Origin: Streptomyces curacoi | GTDB taxonomy: Bacteria > Actinomycetota > Actinomycetes > Streptomycetales > Streptomycetaceae | Assembly: GCF_001513975.1 (NCBI RefSeq) | Contig: NZ_KQ947985.1 | Location: forward strand, 688,266-752,265 | Direction of reading: 5' to 3' | DNA: 64,000 nucleotides | Shown: positions 43,431-45,360 of the stretch, one piece after another | How positions within the stretch are numbered: the stretch's first letter is position 1 | Layout of the letters: every line of letters starts with the position of its first letter | The notes under the pieces: model-generated | The model's database searches: none | What the model was told of the DNA's origin: nothing | What the model saw: only the letters and a program-made list of their open reading frames with translations | Made by a program: the position numbers and the translations under genes

Positions 43431-44618
43431 CTACCACATCACCGGCAGCCGCTCCGGGATCCGCTTCATGAACCCGGTCCGCCACACCAGCTGCTCGATC
43501 GGCACCGCCAGCCGCAGCCCGGGCATCCGCTCCAGCAGGGTGTCCAGGGCGATCTCGGCGTGCTTGCGGCCGAGCGCGGTGGCGGGGCAGTAGTGGCGGC
43601 CCCCGCCGAAGGACAGATGGGCGGTGGCGTTCTCGCGGCCGAGGTCGACCGTGTGCGGGTCGGGGAAGGCGGCCGGGTCGAAGTTGGCGCCCTCGACGAG
43701 GACCAGGACGAGGTCGCCCGCCCGCACCTCCACGTCGCCCAGCCGTACGTCCTCGGTCGCCAGCCTCGGCAGGCCGTCGCCGATGGACAGGTTGATCCGC
43801 AGCAGCTCGTCCACGGCCGCGGGGACCAGGGTGCGGTCGGCGAGGAGGCGGGCGTGCAGCTCGGGGTGCTGGATCAGCGACACCAGGGCCATGGCCAGGA
43901 AGCCCGAGGTGGAGATGACGCCCGCGCCGAACATCGTCACCCCGACCGTGGCGAGCATCTCGTCGGTGAGATGGGCGTAGTCGGGGTCCGCGCGCAGGGC
44001 GGCGAGCTCTCCCATCAGGCCCATCGTCGCCGGGTCGTCGAGCCGCTCGGTCATGTACGCGATGTCCCGGTCCCAGTTCAGCCGGGCGCCCGCGATCGGG
44101 CAGGCCGAGTTCATGAACGCGATGTCCAGACTCCGCATCAGCCGGGGCGCGTCCGCCAGCGGGATGCCGAGGATGCGGCAGTGCATGCCCGCCGAGTACG
44201 GGTCGGCGAAGCCGCCCCGCAGATCCACCGGCGCGCCCTCGCGGACCAGCCCGTCGACGAGCTCGGCGGCGTACGACCGCATCCACTCCGCCAGACCGGG
44301 GCTCTTCGGATTGAGCGCCTTCAGTACGGCCTTGCGCAGCCCGGCGCCGGTGATGTTCCCCATGTTGTTGACGACCTCGGGCGGGATCGTCAGCGCGTAC
44401 TGGCGGGGCACGCCCGGCGCCGAGGTGTCCTTCAGGCTGAAGCGCGGGTCTTCGAGGACCTGCTTGCACAGCTCGTACGACGACACGAGCCAGGCCTCGT
44501 CACCGGCGATGGTGCGCACCCGGCGCACGGGTGCGTTGGCGCGCAACTCCTCCACCTCGGCGGGGATTTGATCGCCGCGCCAGGAGAACGGGAAGTCGAT
44601 GAGGGCTTCAGTCTGCAT
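43431..44618 (-). CDS. Cytochrome P450 of the CDPS-associated type
   Basis: 395 residues. ExxR is EL-LR at 271-274 and the heme loop FGGGRHYCPATALGR has Cys344. The I-helix segment FGAGVISTSGF (230-240) lacks the usual acid-Thr pair, having Ile-Ser-Thr instead, as I recall for P450s that couple diketopiperazine radicals. The C-terminus VPIEQLVWRTGFMKRIPERLPV also matches that group. The start at 44618 lies inside the upstream cyclodipeptide synthase gene (11-bp overlap), so the two are translated together. Likely role: oxidative coupling, dimerisation or nucleobase linkage of the cyclodipeptide. The electron donor is not local. Confidence 0.9.
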   Translation of the reverse strand: MQTEALIDFPFSWRGDQIPAEVEELRANAPVRRVRTIAGDEAWLVSSYELCKQVLEDPRFSLKDTSAPGVPRQYALTIPPEVVNNMGNITGAGLRKAVLKALNPKSPGLAEWMRSYAAELVDGLVREGAPVDLRGGFADPYSAGMHCRILGIPLADAPRLMRSLDIAFMNSACPIAGARLNWDRDIAYMTERLDDPATMGLMGELAALRADPDYAHLTDEMLATVGVTMFGAGVISTSGFLAMALVSLIQHPELHARLLADRTLVPAAVDELLRINLSIGDGLPRLATEDVRLGDVEVRAGDLVLVLVEGANFDPAAFPDPHTVDLGRENATAHLSFGGGRHYCPATALGRKHAEIALDTLLERMPGLRLAVPIEQLVWRTGFMKRIPERLPVMW

Positions 44619-45360
44619 CGGTGGTCCCCTCGGCCGGAGTGACGATGGCGTGGCCCTGGTTGCGGGAGGCGCGCAGGCCGGCGCCGCGGGCGTAGAGCAG
44701 CTCGGCCATCGGCAGCAGCTGGTGGTAGCAGTTGAGGGAGGAGGGGACGTCGAGGATGGCGGGGGTGTCCAGGAAGAGGGGTGCCTCGGCGCAGACGTAG
44801 GCGAGGCAGACCTCGCGCTGGGCGTCGGTCGCGCGCCCCGCCCGGCCGGCCAGGAAGGAGTCCACGAGTTTCTCGCAGGTCGCGTGGAACGCGCCGTCGG
44901 TGGCGAGCCGGGCCTGGAGGTGGTCGTGGATCTCGCGGTACGCCGGGTTGCCGTGGAAGTCGGACATGGCGTGGGCGCGCAGCCGCGTGCCGTCGGGGTC
45001 CACCGCCTGGACGGCGCCCAGCACCTTGGCGCGCACGCCGCGCAGGTTCTTCACCGCCTTGCGGCGCGCGTCGTCGGGCGGATAGCCGGACGCCGCGTAC
45101 ATCTCGGCCACGTACAGGTCGGTGTAGACGAAGTCCACCCGCTCGAACAGGGCGAGGCCCCAGCGGGCGAGGTCGTGGACGCGGCGGGCGGAGAAATAGC
45201 TGTTGCCCGGGGAGACCCCGATGACGGCGTGGTCGCCGGCGGCGCGGATGACCTCGCAGTGCGGAGTGAAGGGCTGGACATCGAAGAGGCCGGCCGGAGA
45301 ATCGGCCTCGGTATCGGCCCGGGTGACGTGCTGGATCTCTGGAACGGTCACAGTCGTCAA
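44608..45360 (-). CDS. tRNA-dependent cyclodipeptide synthase, NYH subfamily
   Basis: 250 residues, the length of AlbC-type enzymes, which use two aminoacyl-tRNAs to form a diketopiperazine. GVSPGNSYFS holds the catalytic Ser50 and Asn53; LAYVCAEAPLF holds Tyr188 and Glu192; CYH at 211-213 holds the Tyr-His pair that, with Asn53, defines the NYH subfamily. The position matching AlbC Leu200 appears to be Asn210, so the second pocket may accept a different residue. The start is TTG at 45360 with only AAGGA about 11 bases upstream; GTG at 45351 is an alternative. A promoter is visible at 45430-45459. The amino acids used cannot be read by eye. Confidence 0.93.
   Translation of the reverse strand: MTTVTVPEIQHVTRADTEADSPAGLFDVQPFTPHCEVIRAAGDHAVIGVSPGNSYFSARRVHDLARWGLALFERVDFVYTDLYVAEMYAASGYPPDDARRKAVKNLRGVRAKVLGAVQAVDPDGTRLRAHAMSDFHGNPAYREIHDHLQARLATDGAFHATCEKLVDSFLAGRAGRATDAQREVCLAYVCAEAPLFLDTPAILDVPSSLNCYHQLLPMAELLYARGAGLRASRNQGHAIVTPAEGTTDAD

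Follow-up and report, generated by a model that had tools for sequence, protein, structure and literature searches.

Two overlapping genes on the minus strand of the window (the whole stretch of 64,000 nucleotides that was analysed) encode a cyclodipeptide synthase and a cytochrome P450, and they raise two questions: what this enzyme pair makes, and how its production is controlled.

The enzyme pair and its predicted product

The genes and sites concerned are the following.

44608-45360, minus strand: cyclodipeptide synthase of 250 aa with a TTG start, predicted to make cyclo(Tyr-Tyr) (Pfam PF16715, NCBIfam NF052540, identity to Rv2275)
43431-44618, minus strand: GymB/CYP121-type cytochrome P450, 395 aa, ATG start (identity to GymB1 and CYP121)
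45430-45459, minus strand: promoter-like site, with TTGACG at 45459-45454, an 18-base spacer and TAACTT at 45435-45430 (read from the sequence, putative function)
41271-43402: response regulator/kinase pair, beside the P450 side of the operon
45795-48262: lysC-asd, on the other side of the operon

The reading frames of the synthase and the P450 are open and intact in the window sequence, and the P450 gene starts inside the synthase gene with an overlap of 11 bases, as the initial annotation had stated. Its assignment of the synthase to the NYH subfamily was likewise borne out by alignment with AlbC and Rv2275, in which all of the catalytic residues (Ser50, Asn53, Tyr188, Glu192, Tyr212 and His213) were found. 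The synthase shared 62.7% identity with Rv2275 over 225 positions and 34.8% with AlbC over 210 positions, and it scored 402.2 bits against the curated NCBIfam model for cyclodityrosine synthases (NF052540), the cut-off of which is 300. The pocket alignment that had been proposed as a check gave strings of the cyclo(Tyr-Tyr) type. The P1 pocket reads VGVTMLFN, which fits the cyclo(Tyr-Tyr) motif VG(I/V)TMLFN, and the P2 pocket reads LSFGQLP, which fits L-x-(F/Y)-x-Q-L-P and is absent among the four P2 strings printed, as far as the available part of PMC5816076 goes; the pocket positions on AlbC were picked so as to reproduce the printed motifs, and the fourth P1 residue, numbered 119 in that part of the source, was best fitted here by position 67. 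A pocket position unlike that of AlbC had also been pointed out, which fits Asn210 (Leu200 in AlbC), but it is a trait of the family; Asn210 aligns with Asn251 of Rv2275, a residue that the same part of PMC5816076 calls essential for tyrosyl recognition. The window genome holds a single synthase match, a single close P450 and a single copy of the leader described below.

The P450 was 78.9% identical to GymB1 (PDB 8q6z), 71.2% to 8q6x and 62.5% to CYP121, and its close named relatives come from Streptomyces, as the host itself does, one of them at 93%. We compared 42 CYP121 positions, chosen with the tables in the available part of PMC11084333, and 41 of them were the same as in GymB1, the sole change being Leu102 for Ile102. 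Nine of the 42 differ from CYP121; seven of these differences are common to both GymB-type structures, one (position 230) is shared with GymB1 only, and the last is Leu102. Arg386 and Gln385 of CYP121A1 are not present, and the window P450 has Lys385 and Met384 in their places, like both GymB-type structures. The lack of the usual acid-Thr pair in the I-helix, which the initial annotation had singled out, is real (Ile235-Ser236), but it is again a family trait, found in CYP121 (Ile236-Ser237) and in both GymB-type structures. In a P450 tree of 33 rows, of which 16 of the 29 inner branches were drawn open, the window grouped with L032 and L035 (99/97), and GymB1 sat in an 11-row clade (99/98) that excludes the window P450. 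The phylogeny proposed with the initial annotation thus appears to place the window P450 near but outside the GymB1 clade, so that the pair is not a near copy of a characterised one, and a distant new clade does not describe it either. Three loci at other sites (L038, L041 and L043) have P450s 85-87% identical to that of the window and synthases only 69-74% identical, a mismatch which suggests that the two genes differ in rate or were exchanged.

Taken together, the tyrosine-type motif of the synthase pocket, the score against the NCBIfam model and a P450 pocket almost identical to that of GymB1 do not support the earlier view that the product is not predictable and may be new, and they point to a predictable product, namely cyclo(Tyr-Tyr), mycocyclosin and its nucleobase adducts. 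The synthase would join two tyrosines from Tyr-tRNAs into cyclo(Tyr-Tyr), and the P450 would then couple both phenol rings to give mycocyclosin or, alternatively, join the dipeptide to guanine or hypoxanthine (the guatyromycine type), as in six sister pairs. According to the available part of PMC10092475, these are six two-gene gym clusters that yielded mycocyclosin, guatyromycine A and guatyromycine B in S. albus, the gym adducts being cyclo(Tyr-Tyr) joined to guanine or hypoxanthine. That the locus is a diketopiperazine pathway of two genes, whose P450 is of the coupling type, is supported, and the enzyme pair is a further member of a known pathway, not new in kind. Synthesis of a new kind of product by the pair would fit the placement of the window P450 outside the GymB1 clade and the one active-site residue unlike GymB1. 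We consider it very unlikely and rejected it as the main reading, because the tyrosine pocket motif is complete, the active site matches that of GymB1 at all of the other compared positions, and the neighbours are the response regulator/kinase pair and lysC-asd, and no other tailoring gene adjoins the two enzyme genes.

The pair lies between lysC-asd and the response regulator/kinase pair in seven of eight close loci, the window included, and the contig of the eighth ends at the synthase; near 13 less similar pairs, no flanking gene of the window was found. The same kinase pair adjoins lysC without a synthase in 4 of 28 lysC loci from other genomes that lack the enzyme pair at this place (L065, L068, L069 and L072), indicating that there is nothing pathway-specific about the site, and the two-component system at 41271-43402 was rejected as a dedicated regulator on the same ground. 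The promoter-like site had been annotated before and was confirmed by sequence, its promoter function being presumed. Its -35 and -10 boxes are both kept in six of the seven closest relatives (L002-L006 and L008), and the seventh, L007, starts inside the -35 box at a contig edge; a consensus scanner did not list the site. By eye, several clades within L010-L030 share a GAGTTAC-like or related short sequence, perhaps an activator site, which lies upstream of the -10 box and about 40-60 bases ahead of the leader.

A conserved hairpin in the predicted leader

Upstream DNA of 30 gym synthases contains a conserved block that follows the -10 box and precedes the start codon, and farther upstream the sequence differs by clade. 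In the window, the block corresponds to a hairpin flanked by the -10 box and by the Shine-Dalgarno sequence of the synthase, which the initial annotation had left unmentioned.

45376-45424, minus strand: conserved 49-base hairpin of the predicted 5' leader (covariation, model match and folding)
45424-45416 with 45383-45376, minus strand: stem P1, with one bulged base
45411-45410 with 45390-45389, minus strand: inner pairs of the hairpin
45408-45404 with 45398-45394, minus strand: stem P2, closing the loop 45403-45399
45371-45375, minus strand: Shine-Dalgarno-like AAGGA directly after P1, predicted from sequence and folding to pair with TCCTT at 45365-45361

The hairpin of the window has a fold z of -3.27, and a leader model matched the window at 45364-45437 with 88.4 bits. 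Covariation was assessed at 15 pairs in alignment A1, which holds 30 leaders and was made by MAFFT without structure. As a result, standard pairs were present in 93.5% of 431 cells, compared with 34-44% when the partners were slid, and two-sided changes numbered 27, compared with 9.4 ± 3.3 in shuffles (0/500); two further measures in A1 were not clear of the shuffles (40/500 and 190/500). The two-sided changes were 57 vs 13.6 ± 6.0 in A2, 63 vs 18.8 ± 10.1 in A4 and 61 vs 21.7 ± 3.8 in A5 (0/500 shuffles in each), although these three alignments lean towards the model because they were aligned to it. The outermost pairs were kept in only 69-88% of cells in A2, A4 and A5. With the two outermost pairs excluded, G-U was found more often than A-C (26:12 in A2, 18:5 in A4 and 9:6 in A1), as RNA pairing predicts, which is a tendency only because related sequences are not independent. 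Furthermore, seven unpaired bases of the leader were conserved in at least 93% of the 47 rows of A5, which comprise leaders of synthase genes and of the LuxR-type genes described below.

Rfam 15 gave no gathering match in the window, and none of its families matched the leader in the window or in 18 loci scanned at lax thresholds. Among the papers listed in literature searches, none announces a leader RNA of cyclodipeptide synthases, as judged by titles and the starts of abstracts. The leader is thus a candidate RNA family, unmatched in Rfam 15 and in the literature searched, and it is what looks new at this locus.

Distribution of the leader

The model R1, which was built from gym synthase leaders only, was run on 199 Streptomyces genomes and found 60 sites, spread over 50 of them; the scans of genomes with RNA models used stricter filters, which tend to lose weak copies. 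A synthase match lies within the next 400 bases at 48 of the 60 sites. Among the 89 synthase rows, the leader was ahead of 47 of the 48 that reach 45% identity or more (counted by gene, 47 of 47, because two of the rows belong to a single split gene), 1 of the 7 at 40-44% and 0 of the 34 under 40%. For the P450 in the same 199 genomes, 50 of 50 rows with at least 59% identity were downstream of a leader, compared with 0 of 3 at 49-54%. The remaining twelve R1 sites include three shortened or lost synthase frames with the P450 sequence kept (L119-L121), a deletion remnant recognised by eye (L123), two orphan leaders with no gene recognised behind them (L122 and L126) and a match of 30.1 bits that is probably due to chance (L129). 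At the other five (L124, L125, L127, L128 and L130), R1, though trained on synthase leaders, found the leaders of small LuxR-type genes.

These five LuxR leaders were included in the training set of a second model, R2. Among the best 80 of 127 named relatives, a selection that leaves distant relatives outside the figure, R2 matched 79, with one hit per locus that was just ahead of the synthase, and the matched loci belong to Streptomyces, Streptacidiphilus, Yinghuangia and Actinomadura. In L215 (Kitasatospora humi), no copy scored with R2, and a degenerate one may be present by eye. R2 matched 14 of 394 genomes, in 2 of 137 genera, in a class-wide set, and 123 sites in 108 genomes among 392 Streptomyces genomes. 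Forty of these 123 sites were inspected: 30 lie before a synthase and P450, 8 before a LuxR-type gene (one of them L140), 1 before a synthase remnant, 1 before a P450 remnant and none before other genes. Leaving aside decayed copies, the doubtful match and the two orphans, we saw no genes behind the leader other than those of the synthase and the P450 and those of small LuxR-type regulators, which are HTH proteins of about 115-140 aa (L124, L125, L127, L128, L130, L241 and L245-L251). In 101 genomes there were seven LuxR-type homologues; R2 matched the leaders of four (L139-L142) and gave no match for the other three (L143-L145), and only L140 is new among the four because the other three were already in the training set.

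Some further observations concern individual loci. Similar-looking secreted proteins are encoded near the leader in L125 and L127, as seen by eye. The leader is still recognisable beside a decayed synthase or P450 in L119, L120, L121, L123, L242 and L277. Genome G085 has four leader copies (C22, C91, C95 and C130), three of them before synthase matches and the fourth before a close P450 with a decayed synthase. Two copies stand far from the synthase, the match to which begins 518 bases downstream in L151 and 293 in G089.

Proposed control and comparison with known systems

The position of the ribosome-binding site suggests how the leader may act. In 79 leaders, the distance from the last P1 pair to the start of the Shine-Dalgarno-like sequence had a median of 0 bases (range -1 to 4), a value that leans to nearness because the search spanned only -3 to +14 of that pair. 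The mean unpaired probability of this sequence was 0.22, compared with 0.41 in shuffled leaders, and it was lower in 62 of the 79, although GC-rich RNA folds readily, as the shuffled value of 0.41 already shows. The predicted pairing of AAGGA with TCCTT forms a second small hairpin in the window, which covers part of the start codon; by eye, the pairing partner varies between clades. In both gene classes, 76-86 bases separate the start codon from the 5' end of the motif (loci with the first residue of the query aligned). The synthase starts at 45358-45360 with the rare codon TTG, as do, by eye, most relatives with printed upstream DNA, and such a start would fit weak, controllable initiation.

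We infer from the -10-like box alone that the transcript starts at or just before stem P1. P1 would end at the Shine-Dalgarno sequence, which could also pair with the bases next to the TTG start, and an effector (a small molecule, a protein or an RNA) may change the fold by binding to those unpaired bases that are conserved, so that translation would be controlled by the leader in an effector-dependent manner. Our preferred explanation, which we hold with fair confidence, is a cyclodityrosine operon behind a single promoter-like sequence, predicted to make mycocyclosin and nucleobase-coupled cyclo(Tyr-Tyr), with a covarying hairpin that probably controls translation of the synthase by hiding the ribosome-binding site. 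A more specific proposal, which we advance tentatively, is that the leader represents a new riboswitch class, a metabolite aptamer of about 49 bases that switches the translation of synthase/CYP121-type operons and also that of small LuxR regulators, both in Streptomyces and related genera and in a few further actinomycetes; its ligand would perhaps be a purine, as the co-substrate of the P450, or a signal of the amino-acid or nucleotide state.

Cyclodipeptide synthases drain charged tRNA, and the hairpin might instead be a fixed 5' element without an effector, which stabilises the mRNA or acts as a constant brake on such an enzyme. Its predicted place at the extreme 5' end of the transcript and its stable folding on its own are consistent with this, but we find it rather doubtful, because a mere stem needs no conserved unpaired bases and the loop bases are unpaired yet at least 93% conserved across the synthase and LuxR leaders, and because the same core precedes an unrelated gene family. 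That gene family could also be taken to suggest that the block is a DNA operator, in which inverted repeats bind a transcription factor and no RNA structure is formed; the block is directly 3' of the -10-like box, and of the two gene classes that follow it, one codes for a DNA-binding protein of the LuxR type. This is unlikely, given that the pairs show G-U in excess of A-C in the three alignments, that one P2 pair is G-U in 8 of 12 distinct LuxR leaders and another in 9 of 12, that the loops are asymmetric and conserved, and that the window genome has no close homologue of the LuxR protein at E 1e-20. Enzymes that bind tRNA are known to regulate their own expression, threonyl-tRNA synthetase being an example, and the leader closely tracks one synthase clade, as would be expected if the synthase, a tRNA binder, bound its own leader. 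Five genomes with LuxR copies (G014, G056, G080, G139 and G164), however, keep the leader without a synthase match, which makes such autoregulation highly improbable.

Under the preferred explanation of effector-dependent control at the ribosome-binding site, a covarying RNA that the operon shares with a second gene family would provide a handle on silent pathways, and the signal that these operons sense could be tested for directly, since both gene families, though unrelated, point to a single effector. The available part of PMC13122648 describes a related cluster as silent under standard laboratory conditions, and no account of a restraint on the translation of cyclodipeptide synthases was found in the accessible portions of the literature on these enzymes.

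Among known systems, the gym clusters of Streptomyces (mycocyclosin, guatyromycines A and B) resemble the window in the synthase and P450 operon, in the cyclodityrosine pocket motif and in the high overall and active-site identity of the P450 to GymB1, and they differ in the clade placement of the P450 and in one pocket residue; the available part of PMC10092475 makes no mention of an RNA leader. Rv2275/CYP121 of Mycobacterium tuberculosis (mycocyclosin) follows the same two-gene logic with the same I-helix, at 62.7% and 62.5% identity, whereas CYP121 differs from the window P450 at the nine positions given above, including Lys for Arg386 and Met for Gln385. The systems with nucleobase-coupling P450s of Trp diketopiperazines (guanitrypmycin gut clusters, PtmB) are alike in having a synthase and a related P450. 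Synthases of about 46% identity with P450s of about 62-65% identity, which are presumably of the gut type, also carry the leader; these loci are unlike the window in the synthase identity of only about 46% and in a tryptophan pocket, LGVALFFA, read in L058 only. Structured leaders and riboswitches that act on the Shine-Dalgarno sequence likewise have a compact hairpin at the 5' end, in which unpaired bases are conserved and which extends to this sequence, and the candidate hairpin shows the conserved, covarying leader structure expected of riboswitches. Novelty at this locus would come from the leader, not from the enzyme pair.
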